A DNA stretch of 64,000 bases from Sphaerolaimus hirsutus (Eukaryota; Nematoda; Chromadorea; Monhysterida; Sphaerolaimidae): NCBI GenBank assembly GCA_964036195.1, contig OZ038450.1, forward strand, positions 10,914,701 to 10,978,700, given 5' to 3'. Positions 3,748 to 62,384 of this stretch are shown piece after piece (within the stretch, counting starts at the first letter, position 1; the number at the start of each line of letters is the position of its first letter). Position numbers and translations under genes: made by a program. The notes beneath the pieces are model-generated. The model was given only the letters and a program-made list of their open reading frames with translations, was not told where the DNA came from and searched no databases.

Positions 3748-3797
3748 CTCATTTGCAGAGTTGTTATAAATACTGAACTTTTTTCAAAGTATATGTA

Positions 3798-5594: not shown

Positions 5595-8400
5595 TTTTTT
5601 TTAATTGTGTAAATTTATACTGAAAGTTATAAATTTTAGCGCAATTTTTTTAACATGCATTATAAAATGCATTCCGTGTATGGTTAAAATGTTAAATCTT
5701 TCCCCTGTAAGTTTATTTTACGCAAATATTTTACATCATAATTTTACGGAAAGCACTTTGAGCTGTAATCGACCCTTTACAGTTATTGTCTCAGACGTGC
5801 AGACGTTTTTTTGGCGGGATCTAGTCACGGATTTTACCGCATCAGTAATAAATAGCACCACGCGCCTGCTGCGGCAGACACATGACAAGAATACCTATGT
5901 TTCTGTGAACGTCAACAGATGTCACGCACGCCGCAGCTGTTTCTTTTCCTGGCGGCGCGGCGGCGCTGCGCCTGCGCGGCGCACCGGCTGTGGCGCACAT
6001 GCCGTTTGGCATAATTTTGAAATAAAATTATTCTCAATGGTTCCGCTTAATGCGTCGCGGCTAACGATGGTAAAAAAATTCAAAAATTCGAAAAATTTAT
6101 TTCACCGCTGGTAAAAAAACTTAAAATCCATTGTTTTTAAAGAAAAACTGGAAGATCCCTCAACTATTTTATATTTTTTGTTGCAATTTGTTCTTGAAAA
6201 TGCATATTTCATGTGATGGTTACGTCAACTTCCCATGGATGTTTACAATATCCAAAACTACTTTCCGAAAAAAATTCTAAATTCAGAAAGTTATTTTGGA
6301 AAAATCAACACTTCAAACAGTTTTTTCCAGAGTGTTTGCCGGCAAGTACGCGCTGGGAAAGGTGGTGCCGCGCATGCACACGTGTTGGCCGATGGTTTGC
6401 AGGTCGGCGCCGAGCGGCCGCATGTGCTGCGCATATGCCCAGCTGGCGCGCGCCGCCGCCGCGCCGCCGCTATTATACAAAGATTTCCCAGAACGGCACA
6501 CCGCCTGCACGTTTTTCTCGATGCTGAATTTCGACCAAACTTTTTACCTGGGGTCTTTCGCACAATAGGTTTGAAAAATGTTTCCCGTTTTGGTGCTCCA
6601 ATCAAGCAGAGTGTACCTGCGAGTAACGATACTAAACAAAGTTGCAAGCAGTGCGATGAAATGCGACGACGAGAAAAATAGTGGAGTGATTGCGCAGCTG
6701 CGTCCAGACTTCCAAACATGCTATGCTTGGCTTCTGAATCAACATCGCTTCGTTTGAGCAATTCAGAACGGTATATACCTGCCTATATACTAATACTATA
6801 TATATACTAAATATGCCTGCCTACAGTCTATTCAGTATACAAATAAGGCGTCCAGTTCTAAAAGACGATAAATCCAATTTTGGCAAAATTTTGTTAGGCC
6901 CAGCCGGAATTTTTATCTGAGTGGTCCGCCCATTTTTGGCCATTTTGCTCACTACTACCCCTTTTTGAAGTGTCGGATTTTGAGACTGTGAAATATAATA
7001 ATAGTGCAAAAAAATTTCGGGCAGAAGGTCCACTCTGAATCAGGCCAAATGTCAATAAGTCCATCTCGTGGTGATTTTTGTTGAAAAAACACTGACAATG
7101 TGTTTAGTCCTTGTTGGATGTAGATTTCTAAAGGTCGATAAGTCCATAAATTGTCCTTTAAGCGAAATTAAGCGACTAAGAAGCGATTTTTTGTGACAAG
7201 TGAGACGTCAATACATCAATCCCTTTCCCACAATATTTTCGCAGACAATAATTCAACGAGTCCACCACTGATTTCAGCAAAAGTCAACGGCAAAAAGTTG
7301 ATAAGTCCAGTAAAAAAGTGAATAAATTTTTTGGACTTATTGACTTAACGAAGTAGGGTGCTCAAATACATTGACGACAGACTTAGCGATTACCAAGTGT
7401 CAGTCAGTACCGCAACCTGTAAAGTGTAAAGTAAAGTGTCAAATGTCATGTAAAATGTCATACAAGTTTTGTTCGATTATCGTAAATATGTCAAAAGTTC
7501 TGTAATAAATTCTTCTTTTTCATTTAATAGTTATTTTGCATAAAACTTGACTTGACACTTTAGTCTTTACAGAGTGTCCAAAATGACCCATATCGAGCGC
7601 ATATTACGTCCATCCCAGCCTACAAAAGCATTAATAAACATACCTAAATATCGTATGTACATATATCCCAGATGCACATATTACAGACCCTCATTTACCC
7701 CGATGTTTGCGCACCTGTTTTTGTTTTGCTGCAGCGACCTAAACATAGCAAGCAATCGGATAATTGTGAAATCGCCACCGACCATATATGAATTTTAGGC
7801 GTTCTTCGGTCTGAAAGACTGGGGCGACAGCAGTCGAATGAGCCGGTCTCCTCTGCCACATTCAGATGGTGTTTGAGGCGGGTGCAGGTGCCAGGTGCGG
7901 CGCGCCCGCAGGCAGTCTGTCACGCGCAGCTGACCACCGACGACAGCGCCAGCCGCTGCATGACGGCTCACGCATTGTGCTGCTTCTGGCGTCGCTGCCA
8001 GTCGCACTCGCTGCTTCCTGTTTTATTCAATGCCGTCTGCCTCAGCCGTGCTTATCGTCATTTGAACGTGTTGCTTTTATGCCGGTAAATTAGGTAGGAG
8101 GTAGGTACTTTTGGGAAAAGAAACATTTCTTAGTATGACACAGATTACAGACAGACGAACATTATTTTGGTGATAATTGGGAGCAAATGTCAATTAAGGG
8201 TATGACCGCATGCTTTACGGAGTATGTTACCGCATTTTCATATATGAAGCATGGCATAACGATAGCATAGCTTTTCATCTTATCTAGGTATCTAGATAAG
8301 CCATTTTGAGGCTAAGATTTGCTGATTACAATGATTTCGTTTTTGTTTCGATATACATTGGCTACAGAGTTATTTATAAACCTAAGTACCTAGATAATAG
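5595..8400. other. intergenic region with GC-rich patches and a decayed introner-like relic
   Basis: GC-rich patches at 5925-6010, 6340-6480 and 7860-8045 contain overlapping ORFs on both strands with no recognisable domains, so they are not called as genes. About 7405-7580 has AACCTGTAAAGTGTAAAG on the left and GACACTTTAGTCTTTACAG on the right, resembling the introner family at 50692 in decayed form. The rest is AT-rich and unremarkable. Confidence 0.35.
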
Positions 8401-17300: not shown

Positions 17301-19772
17301 TGAATAATACGAATGCTGCTGCAGTGGGCACATCAACAGTCATACCAGCCATCACCAGTCAACACAACGCCCATGCGCCATCAACCAAGCTGTGTATACA
17401 GCAGTCAGCAGGCCAATTTTGCCGCCGCTCCACAGCGCCAAGTTTATTCGTCAATAGCACAGCCATATCACTGAACGATATCGTCGGTGTGGGCGGCACT
17501 GCTGTCACCACTTCACAGGTAAACATTCGAGTAGCTTACGCTATTTTCAAATTGCAAAATACGTTTATTGATGCAACCGCACAGTCAGCGGCGCCAACAA
17601 CAATTCCACATTTGCTGGAAACACAAAGCGGCCATATCACCACGACGCCATTTTTGACACAGTCAGATTGGAACTCATTAGATTCGGTGAGCACACTGTT
17701 CGGTACGCAATACTCGAGTATGTATACGTATTTTCAGAGTAAAGGTACCTAAATACGTTTTAACAACTATGATTCAAAATACACCCAAAGCTATCAGTTT
17801 ATGCTTCTCCCCTTATCGGAGTGAGAAAGTTAGTTTGAAAAATGTCAACCTGTGCACTGTTTGAACTGAAAGTACAGCTCGACGTAAAATGCAGTTTCAC
17901 AAAAACGTAATAGGTAGGTATTTATCAAAAATTGAATTACAAAATTAAAATGGATGATGGTACCGGTACCGGTCTCAAATTTGTCATGTCCTAAGTCCTA
18001 ATTAGTGATGTAAAAAGCGCCAAGACTTTGGTGTCAAGCGCCAAAAACGCCGTGGCGTCTTGCCAACACCGAACGCCCAGCGACAAAGTCGCGATCGCGC
18101 TTTTCATCGCCATCGCGCCAAGCAATGGCGCAACGGCAAGATATCGCCAAGCGCCAACAGCAACATGGTGCTTTTTGCTTTGCTGCTAGCGCGGTGCGCC
18201 AGCGCCATATGGCGCTTTTACAAAACTAGTGGTCACAATACCTTGATCGTGCTTAAAACGGTCAAGGTATTGGTTTATTATTAGACTTATTCATCACAAA
18301 TTGGAGAAATCTGTGTCATCATGAATTTTTTTGTGACACTCCAAAACTCCATTTTACAGCGAGCTGTACATCGACCCTTAATGAGTGAATGGATGAAAAA
18401 TGAATGAATGAAGAACAGAATGAATGAATAATGAATAAAGAACACGGGTAATGAACAGAGCCGCCCGGCCAACCCAAAATGCTACCCATATCAGTGGACG
18501 CTTATTTAGCTACTCTAACTGCACACACACACCGTTCAGTGACCTGGCCACACGCAGCTGTTCCACGCCATGGGCGGGCTGGTGGACAAGCTGCGCGAAG
18601 AGATGTACGTGATGCAGCATCGAGTGCACCTGTCGCAGCTGTGGCAACAGCAGCAGCAGGAACAGCAACAGCAACAGTCCGCGACGCACGAGCGACGTCC
18701 CAGTCAGACGAATGTCGACGCGGCTATCAAGGAGGTCAAGCGCGCCGCCTTGGAGGAGCTGAACAAGGCTGTAGCGGCAGCTGAGAGCAAGGCGGCGGCC
18801 ATGGTTACCGCTGAGAGGACACATCTGGAGCGCATGCTGCTCGCTGCCAACGTGCAGCTCGACCGACCGGAGGTAAAAATACAGTATTTACCTATTTTAC
18901 ATAAGATGGCCTTCGCACAGTTTCCTATGGCGGCAGAAACTTAGTGTTTCAACCATTTCTGTGATGGAAATCGAACACTTTACATGTGCTCAGTCGGTCA
19001 TGGTTTGATTTTGATCGCGCTCGCTGCTTATGAATTTTTAAAGATGACTTTATGATGCACACAAAACAAGACGAGAACCTGATGAAAACTCTTGTAATTG
19101 TAAAAATGAAAATTCAAATTTTTACGAATTCAAGAACGATGTGACTTGATTCATCAAAACAACATTTTTATAGGCCATGCGGTCGTCTTGTCACGATAGC
19201 CACTGGCGCAACTCCATTCAAAAGTCAAAAATCGAACATTTGAAAAGGCACCTAAAAAGGCTACTTTTAAACAACAGAAATATCATTCCTCGCAGAACTG
19301 CCGGAACTGCGGGCGGCAGGCGGGTCAGGCGTGCGGCGGGTGCAACCGGGCGCGCTACTGCGGCACGTTCTGCCAGCACCGGCACTGGACCAATCACAAG
19401 GCGGAGTGCTCGCGCGACGACTCCACAGGCGGCAAGGCCGGCTGCGGCGGCACCATCGCCCCCAAGTCGACCAGCGCGTCTGCGTCCCGACCGGCCGTCA
19501 GGTGCCAATCCCAGAGCCTGTAAAATGCCCTGTAAAATGTGAAATGTCATGCAAAGTGTCAAAAGTCATGTAAAATGCCCTGCAAAATGGCTAACGTAGG
19601 TTTTTCACATGACATTTCACATTTTACAGGGCACTTTACGGAGTCTGGGACTGCTCCCAGGACGATCAAAGTGGAAAAGGATGTGGAATTGTGTGAGAAA
19701 GTTGCGGTAATCGGTAGACCGGCCAGCCCGGTCAGTTGCAGCCACCGGCGGACCGACGCAAAGAGTGTGTGA
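14331..19772 (+). CDS. nvy: nervy/CBFA2T (ETO family) transcriptional corepressor, 5' end not found
   Basis: Ten exons with matching phases: 14331-14497, 14953-15081, 15837-16150, 16253-16468, 16537-16730 (or 16736), 17238-17518, 17585-17686, 18558-18872, 19296-19501, 19661-19772; about 678 codons. Exons 1-2 encode NHR1/TAFH (KLKLFMETVYRCS, then FFEKLQKETQFPLREYVVPF). Exon 7 and the start of exon 8 form an NHR2-like segment (SDWNSLDS joined to LFHAMGGLVDKLREEM). The rest of exon 8 is NHR3 (EVKRAALEELNKAVAAAESK). Exon 9 is a MYND zinc finger with all eight ligands (CRNCGR, CGGC, YCGTFCQHRHW, H, C). ETO proteins bridge DNA-bound factors to nuclear corepressor and HDAC complexes; NHR2 oligomerises and MYND contacts corepressors. 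MYND plus TAFH excludes TAF4 and DEAF1. The last intron is an introner. ATG 14351 has a strong start context (GCAGCCATGG), but exon 1 continues upstream in frame. The middle exons are Ala/Ser-rich and poorly conserved. Confidence 0.88.
14718..14897. mobile_element. small GGAAAACGG-family element in nervy intron 1
   Basis: The degenerate left end (GTGTCAATAAAAAC) and right end (GTAAGTTGACACCC) match the GGGTGTCAAC ends of the 1595-2158 element. The interior is AAATGGAAATGGAAACGG repeats. The target duplication is no longer clear. Confidence 0.6.
15577..15787. mobile_element. CCTTGAATAA-type element in nervy intron 2
   Basis: The right end GAGGATATACGG and five tandem CCCCCTTGAATAACA words identify it as a member of the 11620-12176 family. 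The left end (TATATCCTTTAATAAGACC) is degenerate. It ends 49 bp before the exon 3 acceptor. Confidence 0.65.
16737..17237 (+). other. nervy intron 5, unresolved repeat-like content
   Basis: The intron between exons 5 and 6 (GTATCA at 16731 or GTACGT at 16737, to CAG at 17237). It contains a short inverted repeat at about 17108-17145 (TGTCAACTGCACG...CATGCAGTTGGCACA) and TTTGTGT/ACAAATGTTTGA words, but no complete element could be delimited. Confidence 0.4.
18003..18233. mobile_element. GGCGCCAAGC-repeat element in nervy intron 7
   Basis: It starts TAGTGATGTAAAAAGCGCCA, the same end as the hAT-like 42541-44516 element, and is filled with AGCGCCA/TGGCGC words. The right end (GCGCTTTTACAAAACTA) is degenerate and no clean 8-bp duplication is left. 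Confidence 0.6.
18369..18450. repeat. ATGAATGA-type microsatellite
   Basis: Imperfect tandem tetranucleotides (AATGAATGAATGAAGAAC and variants) in the nervy intron upstream of the NHR2/NHR3 exon. Confidence 0.7.
19502..19660 (+). mobile_element. introner: fold-back transposon forming the last nervy intron
   Basis: The element (19502-19657) begins GTGCCAATCCCAGAGCCTG and ends, read inward on the other strand, GGAGCAGTCCCAGACTCCG. Its arms are imperfect inverted copies rich in TGTAAAATG and TGTCATG words. CAG lies on both sides (19499-19501 and 19658-19660), giving CAG/GTGCCA at the 5' splice site and CTGCTCCCAG at the 3' splice site. Removing 19502-19660 leaves codon AG+G intact and opens 36 further codons to a TGA; retaining it ends translation 13 codons after the exon edge. 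Closely related to the STARD10 intron at 22845-23039. Confidence 0.9.
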
Positions 19773-20620: not shown

Positions 20621-21104
20621 CGATTACAGCTCGGGCGTAAAATTCGAGCGTAAAATTCCATCGCAAAATTGATTACATAAAAGTGGATGATGATACAGGT
20701 CTGCAATTTTTCATGGAGAATATGTTTATCAATACCTTCATTGTGTCCGAGAGTCATCATCCACAGTCACTGCAATTTGATTGTGGAAATTCAAAAATTT
20801 CTATTTTACGCTGGAATTTTACGCCAGCTGAAGAAAAATCAATTCTACGCTATGTCATTGCATGCAATCACCTGGCGTAGAATTGACTTTTCTTCAGCTG
20901 GCGTAAAATTCCAGCGTAAAATAGAAATTTTTGAATTTCCACAATCAAATTGCAGTGACTGTGGATGATGACTCTCGGACACAATGAAGGTATTGATAAA
21001 CATATTCTCCATGAAAAATTGCAGACCTGTATCATCATCCACTTTTATGTAATCAATTTTGCGATGGAATTTTACGCTCGAATTTTACGCCCGAGCTGTA
21101 ATCG
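20621..21104. repeat. 0.48-kb near-perfect palindrome (fold-back element B)
   Basis: Arms of about 230 bp (20621-20850 and 20875-21104) are near-identical inverted copies around a 24-base centre. The ends read CGATTACAGCTCGGGCGTAA inverted. The arms carry repeated GCGTAAAATTC words. It shares the inner ATCAATACCTTCATTGTGTCC block with the palindrome at 10394-10911. Short ORFs here simply read the arms. Confidence 0.92.
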
Positions 21105-22712: not shown

Positions 22713-25442
22713 TCAGTCCTCATCGTTGTCAGACGCGTCCACATTGGGAACGGCAGCGGCGGGCACGGCGCTCTCGTCTTCCACCTCCTGTTGGTAGTCG
22801 ACGGGCGTGCACTTGGACAGGTCGACGCGCCGCAGCTCGCACTGCTGGGGGCAGTCACAGACCCTGTAAAATGCCCTGTAAAATGTCAAATGTCATGCAA
22901 AGTGACAAAAGTCATGTAAAATGCCCGGTAAAATGGCAAACGTACGTTTGCCATTTTACCGGGCATTTTACATGACTTTTGACACTTTGCATGACACTTG
23001 ACATTTTACAGGGCATTTTACAGGGTCTGGGACTGGCACCTGGTGCGCGTAGGTCCACGGCTTCCAATCCTTGCAGTGTTGCTGCTTCCAGTCGTCGTAG
23101 CTGATGCACGCTTTGCGCAGTGTTTTTACGGTGCGCGGCATCACGTGATGTGTCAGCTTGTTCATTAGCCAACCGGGGAGGTGACCTGAGAGGAGAATTT
23201 TTATGGTTTTTAAAAACTTTTGACGCTTAAATAGTCACTTAGAATTAATCTAGGTACATGTGCGCACTTTAACTCGACAGACGTTCTACTATACAATTTT
23301 GTTACAGTTAGTACAATTGATTATGTTTGAAATTCAAATTACATAATTGATTTTACCTAAATGCCGACATGTTCACACGAAGACAAACTGAAAACATTAT
23401 TTTAGTTAAATGTCAATGTTTCGTTACGCATTTTTATATTTCGAATTTTTGAGTGTTTTCAAATTTTTATTCTACAATGGCAAAAACCCTCAAAAATTCG
23501 TTGTTGTTTTTGTTGAAAAATCCTAAAATTCAGAAATTTAAAAAGCGTTTTTGTATTTCTGGTTGAAAATTGGTAAAAATGAAAGAACACAATATAAAGC
23601 CTCAATTTCAATCTATAGGATCTATTCATGGTGGAAAATCAAAAATGTACAAATATATAAATATATAGCGTGGGAGGAAGCAAGACAACGTGGTATTCAA
23701 AAATAACGAGAAAAGCTTGAAAATAGAATAATCTGATTGAAACAATTCAAAAATTTGAGAAGTATTCCAGAAAAATTCAAAATTTGAAAACTGAATAAAA
23801 ATTTGATAACTACCTCTGCAAAAGATTTTTAAATTCAAAAAGTCATTCTAGAAAAAATCATTTTTGACACTTTTGACGGGGGGGGGGTTGCTGTCGTTAT
23901 TAACTTGCATATAAAATAGTCCGTCGACTTTACATAATCACCATTGTTGACACGACAGGGCGAATGTCACAAATGTTTCCCCGTTAAAAAAGTGCATTTA
24001 ACCACAAATTTAAATCACCTTTCGGATCTGAATGTGTAAAATACGTCAGCGTGCATGAGCTGGGGCCGGTTGGTCGAATGTAATAGGCAGTCAGGTAGCA
24101 CACGCCTCTGATGCGGCCGCGACGCGGTGGGTAGTCCTGCAGAAAAATGTCACATTGATAGACATATTTGGCTTCAGTTTCATCAAACGCGGCAAACAAA
24201 AACAACTCACTGAATGGCACACAGAATGAGCGAGTATATACATCTCGTGGCCCAGGTCGAGCCAAGACCGCTGCAACACGAAATCCCTGTGCTTCAGGGG
24301 ACTGGGCGACCGAACTGCAATCAATGATAGCACTGTTAAACACGCCTACACTCCAGAGTTGTTAAAAGTACCAAACTTTTTTCAAGGTATACGTAAACGT
24401 AAAGTATTTATTTTTTACTCACCCCCTGAGTACAGAATACGTAAAGTATTTTTGTAGTTTTACTCGCGAGTAAACGTGAGTAAACGTACTTTTTCATCCA
24501 GAAAACGTAAACGTGAGTATTTTATGAAGATTTTCACCCAAATTGTCATTCAAAATCGTTAATTTTCAGAATTTTTTGCATATCTTCAGCAATTTTTGGC
24601 TATTTATGTGCTCATATGCCCATTTTTGACGATTTTTCCCTATTTTAAACCTATTCACTTTGTTTTATTCACTTAAAACACTATACAAAAGACTAACTGA
24701 AATACGTTTTCTGTACTCGAGTACTTTGAAACAGTATAATTAAAAGCGAGAACTGGTACTTTGTTCTGACGAAACGTAAACGTATTTACTCAGTATTCGA
24801 GTAAACGTAAATACGTATTAACAACTATGCTACACTCCATAGCAAATGACAGCCATAATTAAATCAACTCACTCGCATAATAGCAAATTTCGTTGTTCGG
24901 ATTAACCAAGCCTAAGTCGACGCTATCCAACATATATTTGTCCCAGAGTGATCGATAATCGGCATCGTGGAGGACATCGTACAATGTCGCTGCAGGCACG
25001 TCGACGAATTCGCATTGAGACTGGAAAACGATATTTGAAAATGTGATCGACATAACTTGGAAAAGAACCAATGTCCCTGCGCACACTAGTGTTCACACGA
25101 AATTTCAAAAACTCATAAATGAGCTTTGAAAGTGTTCGAGTTTTCCACAATGAGTCATTTTTAATCTCCGTCAACTGTAGTTCACGGCCACCTCATTGAA
25201 GAAAACTCAAATGCTTTCTAGGCTGATTTGTGAGTTTGCGAATTTTCGCGAGAAACCTGGTGCCGCAGGCACAATGAAGCACTCGCTTTGATCATCAAAA
25301 ACTCAGAGTCGGGCGCCGGTTTCGTCCACACCCTGCACAGTTTCTTGCGGCAGCGCAGCGACCAGCCGGCGTGCTGGTCGGCGAGCGCCTTGACGCGCGC
25401 AAAGTCCTCGTCGGCGGGCACGCCGATCACGTTCACGTGCAT
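22713..25442 (-). CDS. STARD10: STARD10-type START-domain lipid-transfer protein
   Basis: Six minus-strand exons: 25442-25287 (or 25257), 25020-24873, 24314-24211, 24136-24019, 23185-23040, 22844-22713; about 267 residues against roughly 290 in vertebrate STARD10. Diagnostic stretches in order are VPADEDFARVK, CEFVDVPAATLYDVLHDADY, SPSPLKHRDFVLQRSWL, DYPPRRGRIRGV, ACISYDDWKQQHCKDWKPW and an acidic tail DASDNDED. Splice phases agree at every junction. START10 proteins bind and move phosphatidylcholine and phosphatidylethanolamine between membranes, and the vertebrate protein is phosphorylated in its acidic tail; the Ser in ASDNDED is a plausible equivalent. No signal peptide or membrane segment. 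Exon 1 ends either at a GC donor (25287), which gives the family length, or at a GT donor (25257), which adds ten residues. The last intron is an introner. It converges with nervy. The initiator ATG is the first in frame, but an upstream exon cannot be excluded. Confidence 0.9.
22845..23039 (-). mobile_element. introner: palindromic transposon forming the last STARD10 intron
   Basis: On the minus strand the element (23039-22848) begins GTGCCAGTCCCAGACCCTG and ends CAGGGTCTGTGACTGCCCC. Its two arms are nearly perfect inverted copies meeting at CAAACGTACGTTTG. CAG flanks both sides (23042-23040 and 22847-22845), so CAG/GTGCC is the donor and CTGCCCCCAG the acceptor. Splicing joins ...YAHQ to QCELRRVDLSKC in phase 0. 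The element fills the whole intron. Retention would read through as ...QVPVPDPVKC. Confidence 0.93.
24354..24829. mobile_element. CAGAGTTGTT hAT-like element in STARD10 intron 2
   Basis: The ends CAGAGTTGTTAAAAGTAC and CGTATTAACAACTATG are flanked by a perfect 8-bp duplication CTACACTC (24346-24353 and 24830-24837). The interior is TACGTAAACGTAAAG and GAGTAAACGT repeats. It occupies 476 of the 558 bp of the intron. Confidence 0.9.
25084..25250. repeat. dispersed repeat in STARD10 intron 1
   Basis: Words such as AAACTCATAAATGAGCTTT, TCGAGTTTT and CGTCAACTGTAGTTCA recur in similar order at about 34990-35160 and 43900-44060, marking a degenerate element. CACTAGTGTTCACACGAA at its edge resembles the ends of the 42752 element. 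Confidence 0.5.
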
Positions 25443-27394: not shown

Positions 27395-27913
27395 TGTTAT
27401 GACCGGGAAATTGCGGTCATTGAGTTTTGCTTGGTGGGGGTTGATTTTAGATGAAGCGGCGGCCGATCTACACTTAATTGTGTTGAGGCATATGCCGCGA
27501 ATAAATTCCAGGGCCCAAATTCCAAACCGGCGCCATTTATTAAGCGAAATCGGTTTATAATTAGTAGAAATTGGGGGGAAAATATTCGATCAAAAATAGG
27601 TAGACTTTAAGGGAAAAATAGCGAGTCGAAAATACAAAATCATTGACTGCCAGCCGATGGAAAAGGTCGGCTGGCGATGGAAAAACATGGGGAGGCCTAT
27701 GGAAAAGTGCCTCAACAAATGCATGAAAAACACACATAATAGTACAAACTGCCCTTGAGCGCGGGCACTTATTTAATGCACACGCAGTGTCGCAATCCTA
27801 CCGCGGCGCGTGTGAAACATAAGCAAGGGGGGCATGAAACAGGAAATTCAAATCTACAGTAAGAAATGAATAAAAATATACCTAAAATGAATGGCGCTTA
27901 CCGCGGCATAACA
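27395..27913 (-). repeat. 3' LTR
   Basis: 519 bp, bounded by TGTTATG/CATAACA, and visually identical along its length to the LTR at 31910-32428. Internal features include CAGCCGATGGAAAAGGTCGGCTG (a hairpin around 27652-27674). Confidence 0.95.
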
Positions 27914-27926
27914 GCCCCTCCCATGA
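27914..27926 (-). other. polypurine tract adjacent to the 3' LTR
   Basis: On the minus strand ATGGGAGGGGC lies directly against the TGTTATG start of the 3' LTR, the usual site of plus-strand priming. Confidence 0.65.
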
Positions 27927-28178
27927 CAACAGTTACACTACCTATAAAAGAAACACTAGTGGAACTGGAAGTCAGATAAAAGCTTACATAAAAGCTACAA
28001 AAATTTCAACCACATAAAATTCAGTGGAATTTTTAGTTACCCAAATGTAACAGCACTGGAATTAAAAGTATAATCCAGAATCACACACTGATCACATTGC
28101 AACGTAACTATAAAAACAGTTGGAAGGGTATATTTTCAAAGAGCACAAATCTACACCCTAAAATCATGCTAGCTCTGC

Positions 28179-30782
28179 TCAGCCCGGATTCCATTGGGTG
28201 CTGGGGCTCAGCCTGGCTTTGTGCTTGTGGCGCATGCAGGGCTCGCCCCAAGGGTTGGTCACCAGTTGACCATCGGATTTTCCAGGGTTCACCAACATGA
28301 ACTCGGCATGTGGTGAAACGCGTTTGGCAGAATTGCGAAAACATTTGGTGGCAGACTTTTTGCGTGGGGGCCTGCCGTAGACCTTGCTGCCCTTGGCGCG
28401 TGGCAGTGTAGCGGGCTTCGACGAGTGCAATTTCCAAATGCCAGTAATTGGCGCCAATTCACGATGTGATAGTTTAGTGACCACCGATTGTGTTAGCATT
28501 TCCCCCTTAGTTGGAGACCGGCAGGCGCAAATCGATTCACCCATGGCCCTGGGCGTGAAATTGGCTTCGAGTCGCTGGAGCTCAGAAATAGCTGTGCGAT
28601 TCATTTTTAGAGTGCCATAGAGTGCCTCGTGGCCGAATAAAAGCGGGCTCAATGTGCGCGGGAAGTGTGGTTTCCGTTTAACCACAGCCCAGATGTCTGC
28701 CGATTGCTGTTGTCCACCAGGTGTGGTATGCAGCAAATGCATTTTGTAGAGCGCCAGGTGATGCCCCGGAATCGGCTTGCCGGCAGTCCCCAAAGCTGAA
28801 TCAGGGTATGACCGGTACTTTGCCTTCTCCATGCTGGCATTGCACTGTGCGCGTTCCCAAACATCCTCGAGCAGGTGCTCCTCAATGATGATCCCCTCCT
28901 CACAGCCACTATCAAGTGTGCCTGTGAGCATGCAGCCCATGAAATCCACTTGAGCAAGCGGACGATCACAATGGGGGTGTCGCACGCTTGCTGGGCTCAT
29001 GGGGCAACCCATCTGCTTGTGAGCTGCATAGCCGCTAGGGAACCACGTTTCAAAATCATCGGGCTCAGGCTCGAAATCAGATGGCAGATTAGAAACATTT
29101 TTAGTCATTTTAGTAGATGGATTACCACTAGGTTCGGTGTCAGATTCAGGGGCACTATAGATGTGCTCATCCACTTTCAGATTGAGTTTGCCACACTCAA
29201 TGCGCATATTTTTCTGAGCATCGTGCTCAGTCTTGCCGGCCTTACGCAGGAAGTCTCGGGCTCGTTCCGCCCGATCCAGTCGATAGGCAGGAGAATCAGG
29301 ATTCAAATAGCATTTTGCCGGCTCATGCGGCATGGGGGCATGATGCATAAAGTAGGTGCACCATGGACCCTGATGTGTAGTTGGGTCAAATTTAGACTGC
29401 CGATCCCAGCCATTGTTTCGACCACCAGATTGGCCCGAGGCATTTCTGGATGCAGCCACAGCTGGTGGAGCATTGGTCCATCCAGCATTTCCACCGTTCG
29501 ACGGATTCAGTGCACGATTAGCATTACGCTGCTCATTTTGTTCAGCCCGATAATGCAGATTTTCCTTGCGCGTGATGTCGAGGCGTCCAACGACATCCGC
29601 CAGTTCGATCTGACCATCTTGCCATTTCTCGCGCCACGGATACCAAAGAGACATTGGCAGCATTCCTCCCATCTCGAGGAACAATTTATTGCCAATTATT
29701 TTCTCGCGCTGTGAGTCGTCAATCTGCTCACTAATATAGTGGAATGTGCTGCACAATCTGCTGTACAGGGTGGCCACAGAATCAGTTGATTTAGCAGAAA
29801 TTCGGTACCACTCGGCGACGGAATGCGCCTTGCGGTCCACCCGAAAAACACGAGCCAACTTGTCGAGAACATATAGCACAGTGTTGCGCTTGTCCAGGCG
29901 AATAGAAATGTAGTGCGCCTGCGCGCTTCCCTTCAAACATTGCTGGAAAACATTGGTCCAGAACAAATGTTGATATGGTGGGGGAACGTTCAGAGCCTGT
30001 AGCGCCACATTGTGAAGCCAAAATTTAAAGGGCCCCGATGGCGCGCTCGAATCCCCATTGAATGGTGTCTGCTTGCTAGCGACAGTGGCTACATGGCCGC
30101 CACTCATGCGATCACTGGAGGAAATTTGTGCCAGCGCATCCATGAGCGACGGAAAGCCATCGGCCGGGACCATGACATATTGGTCAATGTAGGCGGCAAT
30201 TTGACCGATCAAACCGCCAGGCGATGATGACACAGCCTGCAACCTAGCTTCAGTTGAATCAAGTGGCTGGTTAGTAGATGTAGTAGAGGGGGTCCTCAAT
30301 GGACAATGATTGTTTGCGCCAGGTGCTGGTATCGATTGCAAACCCGCGGGCGCATTTTGGACCGGTACCGTATGTGCCGGCACCACGTGTGAAGCCAATT
30401 GTTGGGCAATTGCAGCCGGGAGTTGTTGGATAGCCGACAAAAGATCGACCATTGTCAGTGCTGCAGTCGGCTGGGCAGCGGCGACACCTTGAGGCTGCGT
30501 GGGGTCGTCCCCAATGCCTCTGGGCGGTACTTGATCTTCGAGGTCAAGCACCAATTCCAATGTGGTATTTGGGTCAGTGAAATACAGGTCCATGCACCGC
30601 CATACATGCCGAACAAGTGGCACAGTTCCCAGGCGGGGCGGATCACTAATTGTAGGCCAATCATCGCCATCAATTCGAAACTGCAAGAGCACATTTAGCA
30701 AATGCAGCAATTTCTGCCGTTCGGTGTGCTCGACCCATAATTCGACAACCGGCTCCAGTTCCGCTCGCGTATATTGCGACAT
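28179..30782 (-). CDS. Gag-protease polyprotein of the LTR retrotransposon
   Basis: Single 867-codon ORF starting MSQYTRAELEPVVELW. Residues about 240-410 form a retrotransposon capsid-like region (FKFWLHNVALQAL, QCLKGSAQAHYI, ELADVVGRLDITR). Residues 475-491 hold a Cys/His cluster (WCTYFMHH...HEPAKC) like a modified zinc knuckle. Residues about 606-725 look like a retropepsin: LTGTLDSGCEEG carries the catalytic DSG and LLFGHEALYG sits where the second conserved motif is expected. The last 140 residues are basic and unrecognised. The ORF is intact, with no stop or frameshift. Pol domains are absent. A Ty3-like or BEL-like affiliation cannot be decided without reverse transcriptase. The N-terminal 240 residues are Pro/Ala/Gln-rich and unrecognised. 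Confidence 0.9.
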   Translation of the reverse strand: MSQYTRAELEPVVELWVEHTERQKLLHLLNVLLQFRIDGDDWPTISDPPRLGTVPLVRHVWRCMDLYFTDPNTTLELVLDLEDQVPPRGIGDDPTQPQGVAAAQPTAALTMVDLLSAIQQLPAAIAQQLASHVVPAHTVPVQNAPAGLQSIPAPGANNHCPLRTPSTTSTNQPLDSTEARLQAVSSSPGGLIGQIAAYIDQYVMVPADGFPSLMDALAQISSSDRMSGGHVATVASKQTPFNGDSSAPSGPFKFWLHNVALQALNVPPPYQHLFWTNVFQQCLKGSAQAHYISIRLDKRNTVLYVLDKLARVFRVDRKAHSVAEWYRISAKSTDSVATLYSRLCSTFHYISEQIDDSQREKIIGNKLFLEMGGMLPMSLWYPWREKWQDGQIELADVVGRLDITRKENLHYRAEQNEQRNANRALNPSNGGNAGWTNAPPAVAASRNASGQSGGRNNGWDRQSKFDPTTHQGPWCTYFMHHAPMPHEPAKCYLNPDSPAYRLDRAERARDFLRKAGKTEHDAQKNMRIECGKLNLKVDEHIYSAPESDTEPSGNPSTKMTKNVSNLPSDFEPEPDDFETWFPSGYAAHKQMGCPMSPASVRHPHCDRPLAQVDFMGCMLTGTLDSGCEEGIIIEEHLLEDVWERAQCNASMEKAKYRSYPDSALGTAGKPIPGHHLALYKMHLLHTTPGGQQQSADIWAVVKRKPHFPRTLSPLLFGHEALYGTLKMNRTAISELQRLEANFTPRAMGESICACRSPTKGEMLTQSVVTKLSHRELAPITGIWKLHSSKPATLPRAKGSKVYGRPPRKKSATKCFRNSAKRVSPHAEFMLVNPGKSDGQLVTNPWGEPCMRHKHKARLSPSTQWNPG

Positions 30783-31136
30783 GGCGGAAAATGTGTGAGG
30801 TCACTAAGGCTGCACAAGCACAATTCAGTGCAAAGATGGTGCAGGAGTGGCCAAGCACAACTGGAGTTGGCGTAGGACAATACTGCGCCAAAAATTGACA
30901 AAAATCCAATATTAATAAGTAGGTGCAGAAATTGGCACAATAGTGGCCAACTGCAATTGCAACCAGAAATGTGCAGAACAGGTGCACAATTGGTCTAACG
31001 CGACAGGGCACCCTGAGAAAAATGCAGCAGCCATCAGCTGCAACCACGCCGAAATTTCTGCGAAATCCAAAAAACCGGTGCGAAGCGTCGCCGCTATGAC
31101 GCTAGCCCCAATGGCAAAGCGACGCAAAAAACAATG

Positions 31137-31805
31137 TCGATCAGCCCCAGTGGCTGATCGAAGCGAAAATTTGGCCGCGCAGCCCCAGCGGCTGATAAGT
31201 GGCAGCCAAGAGCGACGCGTGCAGCCAAAATACATACGCCAGTGGCGCAGCGAAAACGGTTCCCAGGCGTGGCACTTATCAGAAAAAACCCAGCGCCCTG
31301 GCAATCCACTCTACCTGGCCCCAGTGGCCGGGTAGATCGAAACGTGTCTGTTTGCACAGCCCCAGTGGCTGGCGAGCAGTGGCAGAGATGTCGCTGGCCC
31401 CGGTGGCTCAGCGACAAAACAAAATTTTCCGGTCAGCCCCAGCGGCTGATCGGACCAAGTTGCGTCGCGGGCAGGTACGTCGACGCGTCGAGGTGCGTTG
31501 CGGCGCGTCGATAAAATGTCGCTGGCCCCAGTGGCTCAGCGACAGCAAAAACGCGGCGCGTCCAGATGCGTCGCGGCGCCTCGATCAAATGTCGCTGGCC
31601 CCAGTGGCACAGCGACAAGACGTCGATTTCCGGTCAGCCCCAGCGGCTGATCGGAACAAGTCGCGGCCAGGTGCGGCCCAGCGGCACGTCGACGCGTCAA
31701 GGTGCGTCGCGGCGCGTGGAAGTGCGTCGATAAATGGTCGCTGGCCCCAGTGGCTCAGCGACAGCGAAAATAAATGTTTTCCGATCAGCCCCAGTGGCTG
31801 ATCGG
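31137..31805 (-). repeat. array of about eleven stem-loops in the retrotransposon leader
   Basis: Between gag and the 5' LTR, hairpins share the core GCCCCAGTGGC (plus-strand reading) but have different stems. GTCGCTG/CAGCGAC stems occur at 31390-31415, 31518-31543, 31591-31616 and 31737-31762. CGATCAG/CTGATCG or GGTCAG/CTGATCGG stems occur at 31137-31162, 31429-31453, 31630-31654 and 31781-31805. Others lie at 31180-31197, 31311-31335 and 31357-31372. The stem sequence changes while pairing is kept, which points to RNA structure in the leader. Confidence 0.85.
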
Positions 31806-31891
31806 AACCAAAAAAACGTTGCAGCCGGAAACGCTGCGAAAGCCAGGCAATCAGGACCTGGGGTCGAAAAATATGGGAGCGAAATGAATCG

Positions 31892-31909
31892 CTCCCAGTA
31901 CAGTCACCA
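31892..31909 (-). other. primer-binding site
   Basis: Directly inside the 5' LTR the minus strand reads TGGTGACTGTACTGGGAG. The leading TGG and complementarity to a tRNA 3' end ...CAGTCACCA fit minus-strand priming. The tRNA species is not assigned. Confidence 0.7.
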
Positions 31910-32428
31910 TGTTATGACCGGGAAATTGCGGTCATTGAGTTTTGCTTGGTGGGGGTTGATTTTAGATGAAGCGGCGGCCGATCTACACTTAATTGTGTTG
32001 AGGCATATGCCGCGAATAAATTCCAGGGCCCAAATTCCAAACCGGCGCCATTTATTAAGCGAAATCGGTTTATAATTAGTAGAAATTGGGGGGAAAATAT
32101 TCGATCAAAAATAGGTAGACTTTAAGGGAAAAATAGCGAGTCGAAAATACAAAATCATTGACTGCCAGCCGATGGAAAAGGTCGGCTGGCGATGGAAAAA
32201 CATGGGGAGGCCTATGGAAAAGTGCCTCAACAAATGCATGAAAAACACACATAATAGTACAAACTGCCCTTGAGCGCGGGCACTTATTTAATGCACACGC
32301 AGTGTCGCAATCCTACCGCGGCGCGTGTGAAACATAAGCAAGGGGGGCATGAAACAGGAAATTCAAATCTACAGTAAGAAATGAATAAAAATATACCTAA
32401 AATGAATGGCGCTTACCGCGGCATAACA
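31910..32428 (-). repeat. 5' LTR
   Basis: 519 bp with the same ends as the copy at 27395-27913; no difference found by eye. It should contain the element's promoter. The flanking GTAC at 32429-32432 completes the target duplication. Confidence 0.95.
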
Positions 32429-50688: not shown

Positions 50689-50691
50689 CTG

Positions 50692-50914
50692 GTGCCAATC
50701 CCAAGCCCTGTAAAGTGTAAAGTAAAGTGTCAAATGTAAAGTCAAATGCAAAGTAAAGTGTCAATCAAAACAAAAAAGAAAAGATTTTATTACTGAACTT
50801 TGCATAACAATTGACAGTTTACTTGACACTTTACTTTACATTTGACATTTGACTTGACACTTTACTTTACAGTTGACACTTTACTTTACACTTTACAGGG
50901 CTTGGGACTGCCCC
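50692..50914 (+). mobile_element. introner-family element inserted at CTG (no acceptor AG)
   Basis: It begins GTGCCAATCCCAAGCCCTG and ends CAGGGCTTGGGACTGCCCC, with TGTAAAGTGTAAAG repeats in both arms. The duplicated target is CTG (50689-50691 and 50915-50917). The donor-type GTGCC end is present, but the 3' boundary reads CCCCCTG, so the exact element could not be spliced out with an AG. No flanking coding sequence is recognised. Confidence 0.88.
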
Positions 50915-50917
50915 CTG

Positions 50918-53348: not shown

Positions 53349-53413
53349 ACCCGGCTGTTTGCAATTGGCGAGATTTGCCTCGTTGAAATTACTGGACTGA
53401 ATGACCTCATCAG

Positions 53414-53588
53414 GTGCCATTCTTAGAGCCTGTAAAATGTCAAATGTCATGGAAAACGTCAGAAATCATCTTGTAAAATACTCTGCAATATGTCAAATTT
53501 TCTTTGATTCCGTTTGACATTTTACATGAATTTTGACACTGCATGACAGTTGTCATTTTACAACGTATTTTACAGGGTCTGGGAGTGT
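53414..53588 (+). mobile_element. introner-family element at CAG
   Basis: It begins GTGCCATTCTTAGAGCCTG and ends ACAGGGTCTGGGAGTGT, with CAG at 53411-53413 and 53589-53591. Both splice-site halves (CAG/GTGCC and GTGTCAG) are present, although the 3' end is poorer in pyrimidines. The arms are more diverged than in the STARD10 copy. It lies on the strand opposite to ADCY9, downstream of its stop; no recognised exon flanks it. Confidence 0.85.
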
Positions 53589-53898
53589 CAGAATTTTTTA
53601 GGGCCAATGCACACAGCAATGGAAAAAATGTGGATCGTGTGTCAAAAACATGCGTCAGGAGAAGCACTTCATTATGACGCAAATGCGCCTGCACGCCCGA
53701 CAGTTTCCTGTGTCAATATTCCCGACAGCAAAGGAACGGGCACTCTGCTGAAAAGCACACCCGACCGCTAAAAATTCTTACCAAATAACAAATTCTTTCA
53801 AATAACACATTCATTTAGAATAGTACAAAGAGCGTCGGCAAATAATTGGCTCAAAATACAGGCGGGTCGGGAATTGCGACTTGTGATTTGGGCAGGAG

Positions 53899-62127: not shown

Positions 62128-62205
62128 TGGAGGCGTAACTGGGCCGCAAAGCCGCTAGTCAACATCGGCTACGCGGCACGTCGCCAAAGCGTGAGTACAC
62201 GCCTG

Positions 62206-62384
62206 GGGGCAGTCCCAGACCCTGTAAAATGCCATGAAATATGTCAAATGTCATGCAAAGTGTCGAAAGTCATGTAAAATGCCCGGTAAAATGGCAAACG
62301 TTTACCGGGTATTTTACATGACTTTCGACACTTTGCATGACATTTGACATTTTTATGACATTTTATAAGGTCTGGGATTGGCAC
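62206..62384 (-). mobile_element. introner-family element, minus orientation
   Basis: Read on the minus strand it begins GTGCCAATCCCAGACCTTA and ends CAGGGTCTGGGACTGCCCC. Flanking triplets are TAG (5') and CAG (3'), one base apart from a perfect CAG duplication. Donor GTGCC and acceptor CTGCCCCCAG are both intact. It is in the same orientation as ADCY9, about 500 bp upstream of the first recognised exon, so it may be inside an ADCY9 intron or an intron itself. Confidence 0.88.

Follow-up and report, generated by a model that had tools for sequence, protein, structure and literature searches.

The last intron of the STARD10 gene raises the question of whether a whole transposon can make up an intron, from one splice site to the other, and of how such an intron would be formed and removed. 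The original prediction for this locus, which lies in a 64-kb window (the whole stretch of DNA analysed here), was that the intron is exactly one palindromic element plus a CAG duplication, and the coordinates and the reading of the strand confirm it (Table 1). The junctions on the minus strand read TACGCGCACCAG / GTGCCAGTCCCAGACC ... GGTCTGTGACTGCCCC CAG / CAGTGCGAGCTG. The arms of the element (22838-22943 and 22944-23049, 106 nt) are 92% complementary, and the intron RNA is predicted to fold into a single long stem (-160.4 kcal/mol, z = -25.9), a value equalled by none of 200 shuffled sequences.

Frame and homology had also been claimed to hold on both sides of the intron, and this part of the prediction stands. 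The joined exons match the solved human STARD10 (6ser_A; E 2e-59, query residues 6-254 of 268), and 13 orthologues, hand-picked from 39 matches, align through the join, with weak conservation downstream of it. The Pfam START domain (E 3.1e-31, residues 17-203) stops upstream of the join, and a scan of the joined peptide found no Pfam family across it. The nearest STARD10 protein in the collection searched is 56% identical. The STARD10 matches, like an Srx match at a sampled copy, suggested a nematode origin, which COX1 did not settle: among the 120 COX1 matches listed (of 7,999 scored), the named organisms are insects or broader groups at 64-67%, and other assemblies reach 89%. The acceptor is a CAGCAG tandem (22842-22847), so the start of the last exon could move by one glutamine codon. 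At the join, nine of the 13 orthologues have one residue fewer and four nematodes have an equal number; given the shorter nine, the second CAG of the tandem may be the acceptor instead.

Table 1. Positions in the window of the STARD10 intron, its flanking exons and related element copies.
Feature	Position	Strand	Remarks
Last intron of STARD10	22845-23039	minus	195 nt, a 192-nt palindromic element plus one CAG
Palindromic element	22848-23039	minus	192 nt; end A, GTGCCAGTCCCAGACC, gives the predicted 5' splice site GT; end B is GGGGCAGTCACAGACC
CAG target duplication, 3' copy	22845-22847	minus	Predicted 3' splice site of the STARD10 intron
CAG target duplication, 5' copy	23040-23042	minus	Last codon (Gln) of the upstream exon
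STARD10 exon upstream of the element	23040-23185	minus	GHLPGW...WTYAHQ
STARD10 last exon	22713-22844	minus	QCELRR...SDNDED and stop
Second element copy	19502-19657	plus	Intron of the neighbouring MYND gene, by frame
CAG duplication, 3' end of the second copy	19658-19660	plus	Predicted AG acceptor; left copy at 19499-19501
MYND gene exon	19280-19501 (start approximate)	plus	zf-MYND; ends at the second copy
Related copy	50692-50914	plus	CTG...CTG duplication (50689-50691 and 50915-50917)
Related copy	62205-62384	minus	Flanks TAG...CAG
Diverged copy	53413-53592	plus	

The neighbouring MYND gene has the layout CAG/GTGCC.../CAG, as judged from its open frame and the CAG duplication. Its zf-MYND finger (Pfam E 1.3e-9, residues 1-37 of the joined peptide) stays on one side, and no homology crosses this join. 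No coding frame was recognised by eye around the other three copies in Table 1 or around a degenerate copy near 7400, and an Rfam scan of the window gave no matches at gathering scores. The region between the STARD10 and MYND genes contains a second, unrelated near-perfect palindrome (20621-21104; 242-nt arms, 98% complementary, without spacer), which is probably another fold-back or MITE family.

A genome-wide search for the element end had been set as a check on the prediction. In the 348-Mb assembly (762 contigs), the exact 26-nt end GTGCCARTCCCAGACCCTGTAAAATG was found 1,043 times, and the reversed control pattern gave no match. The triplet before this end is CAG in 481 cases and CTG in 389 (together 870/1,043, 83%), all of these being minimum copy numbers, as diverged ends are missed. 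The excess of CAG over CTG (p 0.002) may indicate that CAG is somewhat better tolerated. The copies sampled (numbered with the prefix L) all come from contigs 1 to 3, and a shift of up to 2 nt was allowed in fitting their right ends. For the CAG class, 90 of the 481 places were sampled, 86 of them distinct by left flank and 79 with a recognisable right end; the right triplet was also CAG in 65 of these 79. The first CTG sample covered 40 of the 389 places (38 distinct, 35 with a right end), with CTG on the right in 25, CAG in six and another triplet in four. The matching triplets on both sides indicate that the target duplication is CWG. CAG and CTG copies (79 and 18) could not be told apart by the GC content of their flanks (p 0.37).

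In seven copies the two target triplets differ by one base, the left being CTG and the right CAG (L101, L107, L120, L121, L130, L138 and L140). Six of these belong to the first sample, and three of the six look coding, L138 by eye and L101 and L107 from their codon scores, as though an original TG had later been improved into AG. In a later sample of seven further CTG places, which is outside the above counts, three copies could be parsed: L140 (CTG...CAG), with a Kelch repeat that reaches up to the junction; L143 (parsed with CCG as its right triplet), with no Pfam match; and L146 (CTG...TTG), where a weak GST_N match, below the cut-off (E 0.085), crosses the junction. In their left flanks, L141 and L142 resemble duplicates of L140. 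Similar pairs of loci share an insertion (L016/L017, L041/L062, L083/L084, L140/L141); they are probably gene duplications that followed intron gain, and are useful for dating. The family was also predicted to be active or recently active. The copies closest to that in STARD10 are 95-96% identical to it, and 109 sampled copies differ from their own consensus by a median of 8%, which bears out a fairly young age and leaves activity itself unproven.

The element and three bases were then removed from the sampled copies, the flanks were translated, and the peptides were compared with Pfam at E 0.01 or better. The CAG-class sense peptides were required to have 12 or more open codons to either side of the join and were trimmed to 70 residues per side, and those of the CTG class, like the antisense peptides, had at least 20 open codons within flanks of 150 nt. 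The near-duplicates L017, L062 and L084 were removed from the CAG-class sense set and from the antisense set, and the sense peptide of L028 was added by eye. The 54 CAG-class sense peptides yielded 16 families and the 22 CTG-class sense peptides nine, and a single family was obtained from 76 antisense peptides of both classes: GDT1 at L026, in a non-spanning match whose start is 26 residues away from the join. Matches spanning the join were found in 12 sampled copies, nine of them above Pfam's cut-off, and in none of the 76 antisense peptides. Individual scans for spanning covered 20 of the 54 CAG peptides and 17 CTG copies; with 34 CAG peptides outside these scans, the five spanning CAG copies are a minimum.

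In the CAG class, cadherin (L023) and GT92 (L088) spanned the join above the cut-off, and RQC (L087, E 0.0017), VWA_3 (L094, E 0.006) and RGS (L068, E 0.0068) did so below it. The spanning CTG copies were all above the cut-off: trypsin (L136), E1 dehydrogenase (L115), chondroitin GalNAc-transferase CHGN (L103), Srx GPCR (L114), permease (L116), calpain domain III (L124) and CBS (L105), the CBS match beginning three residues before the join. At another calpain locus (L031), the protease domain ends before the join and domain III begins after it. The matches at L107 and L111 were weak and below the cut-off, and individual scans gave no Pfam match for L075, L028, L022, L089, L067, L065, L042, L081, L133, L138, L119, L099 and L110. 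The cadherin gene (L023; FAT4-like match) has a pair of copies separated by about 1.3 kb, both of which the frame identifies as exact introns.

The exact fit of the element plus 3 nt was seen across unrelated genes and in each of the three phases. Similar copies occupy unrelated positions in many genes (the 12 Pfam-spanning copies, STARD10 and the MYND gene), the predicted intron ends are the element ends plus the target duplication, and exact removal restores the frame. These features sustain the original reading of the element as an introner, with splicing itself predicted from the coding frames. The orientation of the insertions points the same way: the GTGCC end was upstream in all 12 spanning copies (12 to 0; two-sided p 0.0005) and in the CTG class alone (7 to 0; p 0.016). 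Codon usage called seven of the 35 CTG-left copies sense and none antisense, with no call for 28, and two of the seven have CAG on the right. Among the 79 CAG-left copies, there were 15 sense calls, one antisense call and 63 without a call, a partly circular result, since the codon model was trained on CAG-class sense frames at hand-chosen coding loci. The antisense call (L028) is a probable error, the sense frame being RNA methyltransferase-like by eye with no Pfam match.

We consider it very probable, from these sequence comparisons, that the STARD10 intron and its family arose by insertion of a non-autonomous DNA transposon into coding sequence. A palindromic MITE would have inserted at CAG in the STARD10 coding sequence, through a transposase that, from the pattern seen, prefers CWG and duplicates three bases. 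Such an insertion would set the terminal GT directly after the upstream C(A/T)G and place another C(A/T)G behind the opposite end of the element. Once the element is transcribed, its paired arms may bring both ends near the base of the long stem, and the computed folds suggest that the stem would bury the internal sequences GTAAAA and TTTTACAG. The donor used by the spliceosome would then be the terminal GT, and the acceptor would lie in the far target copy (AG at CAG and apparently TG at CTG); splicing would restore the frame seen in the flanks, with no added bases.

The CTG class, which the original prediction did not include, bears on the last of these steps. In seven of the 12 spanning copies, the layout is CTG...CTG and exact removal would require a GT...TG intron. 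A search for GT...AG pairs at least 40 nt apart, inside the element and target copy, found no in-frame, stop-free pair in three of the seven (L105, L115 and L124), and two to four in-frame pairs in each of the other four, all leaving part of the element. Retention of the element was considered for these seven copies and ruled out by an in-frame stop in each. Either the TG acceptor is used, or the element is removed by another route, or the genes are damaged. Our assessment of these readings rests on the CTG cases, all seven of which are above Pfam's cut-off. A G follows the CTG in all seven and in 23 of the 25 perfect CTG copies, and the element carries an ACAG (lost in L119, shifted in L133) that lies 19 nt before the target copy ends. 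This ACAG could serve for recognition in the first step, the terminal TG being picked in the second. Human TG acceptors are described, in the text available, only as alternatives to AG within 28 nt (PMC2374985), a distance that the ACAG at 19 nt would fit. CTG insertions are no rarer than CAG insertions in coding sequence, which is odd if TG is a poorer acceptor. Weighing these points, we find the case for the far CTG copy as acceptor in CTG insertions evenly balanced. To the same even degree, the junctions suggest that one family makes two kinds of intron according to the orientation of CWG: GT-AG at CAG and GT-TG at CTG.

The alternative that survives best is that only CAG insertions are spliced, as GT...AG introns, and that exonic CTG insertions remain unspliced in gene copies that are damaged, duplicated or heterozygous and have yet to be purged by selection. 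Few GT-TG introns are described in the accessible literature (PMC3879977, PMC2374985), CAG exceeds CTG genome-wide, and six of the 35 CTG-left copies have a right-hand CAG, including the three taken as coding, which looks like selection in favour of AG. However, the spanning CTG copies have the orientation of the CAG class (seven sense, none antisense), which is unexpected for unspliced insertions and argues against damaged genes; in this sample, Pfam domains contain CTG copies no less often than CAG copies (7/31 vs at least 5/69); and the sampled flanking frames are open in the trypsin, E1 and CBS genes, the latter AMPK-gamma-like by eye. We regard this explanation as rather unlikely.

It is also conceivable that the hairpin is removed outside the ordinary spliceosome, by structure-directed excision of RNA or by excision at the DNA level, in which case the terminal dinucleotides would hardly matter. 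Hairpin introners with non-canonical ends have been described in Amoebophrya in the portion of that study available (PMC7789003). When six further copies were folded, stems were found in all, that is, in seven of seven with STARD10; the weakest (L136, -59 kcal/mol) was interrupted. The abundance of CTG copies in coding sequence relative to CAG copies is compatible with such removal. However, the GT end is needed upstream, which points to recognition of a 5' splice site, and we consider removal of this kind quite improbable.

GTGCCA is a weak match to the usual 5' splice site consensus, and the internal sites CCCT/GTAAAA and TTTTACAG/G, which are nearer to it, might be used instead, with part of the element kept as extra codons. 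With the CAG acceptor, the internal donor would add 18 nt and keep the frame, and some in-frame, stop-free GT...AG pair exists inside the element in four of the seven CTG copies. Nevertheless, the other three have none, and the outermost internal acceptor in CTG copies leaves 19 nt, a frameshift with either the terminal or the first internal donor. Both internal sites lie within the predicted stem in most folds. Furthermore, the GTAAAA donor is equally present whichever end is upstream, so the orientation bias, which its use would not explain, argues against it, and we judge the use of internal sites very improbable. Replacement of an old STARD10 intron by an invading element, with no new intron formed, is scarcely credible, given that no intronic bases are present beyond the element and CAG and that the identical exact fit recurs in unrelated genes in all three phases.

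If insertion into coding sequence is the origin of these introns, the family can be compared with known introners. Introners have been described as non-autonomous DNA transposons with terminal inverted repeats and target-site duplications that form introns; those of Chrysochromulina have their own 5' splice site, with the 3' splice site at the target duplication (Gozashti et al. 2022, PMC9860276). The present family shares the inverted repeats, the target duplication and the carried 5' splice site, but the available part of that paper describes neither a CWG duplication nor two acceptor types set by target orientation. The nearest GT-TG precedent found is in the accessible text on Micromonas, in which the introner classes IE-B and IE-D (25 and 6 members) have GT-TG splice sites and are repeated introns like those described here (PMC3879977). 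Micromonas, however, is a green alga, and in the present case TG or AG would follow the CTG or CAG target within one family. A 5'-CWG-3' target duplication is reported for the NuwaI transposons of the PHIS (PIF/Harbinger-ISL2EU-Spy) superfamily, found mainly in animals (PMC4482050). The likeness rests on the CWG duplication (870/1,043 ends), and the part of that article available does not describe NuwaI as introns. In Amoebophrya, a dinoflagellate, the hairpin inverted repeats are bordered by direct repeats of 3-5 nt at non-canonical, widely variable ends, in the section available (PMC7789003), whereas the terminal GT is fixed in the present family.

Non-canonical introns in tunicates are reportedly the subject of work by Henriet in 2019. 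For the tunicate Fritillaria, the text available attributes such introns to a genome-wide change in the splicing machinery (PMC13326754), unlike the single element family seen here. Splicing without a strict AG requirement has been described in C. elegans (Aroian 1993, as cited in the available text of PMC4991786). Among the matches listed in our literature search, which had most subscription papers outside its range, no family like the present one was recognised among introners, and the combination of introner and Harbinger was fungal only; the novelty of the family is unproven. We suggest, from the element and target ends, that in these introners the acceptor comes from the target duplication, as AG or, apparently, as TG.

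How animals gain new introns has long been asked. According to the available text of Gozashti et al. (PMC9860276), which names copepods, only two groups within animals and land plants are known to have introners, and both are animals. The element is present in hundreds of places and the mechanism would be readable from the sequence, the target preference matching the exon side of the donor as well as the acceptor. The contrast between CAG and CTG, with similar intron bodies, would be a natural genome-wide experiment on relaxing the AG rule in an animal, and would also probe whether hairpins decide the use of splice sites. If GT-TG splicing is true, about 70 such introns would be expected from exact-end copies (seven of 40 fetched CTG places, 389 in total), and more once diverged copies are added; they would be tolerated because the hairpin presents mainly the terminal sites and host acceptor recognition does not insist on A.

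Several further repeats were observed. One longer copy of the element (L145) contains the element's unit repeated in internal tandem arrays, and its inner AT-rich stretch resembles an inverted repeat by eye. In the window, two direct repeats of at least 300 nt, 100% identical and 4,515 nt apart (27395-32209), enclose an open frame of 873 aa on the minus strand (28179-30800), in which Pfam found nothing at E 0.01; the arrangement resembles an LTR-type element of recent insertion. C-rich or G-rich runs around CCGTATTTCCTCGAAATACCCCC mark a dispersed repeat that is present in both orientations, at 3793, 9792, 11615, 26638, 35717, 37111, 43224 and other sites.
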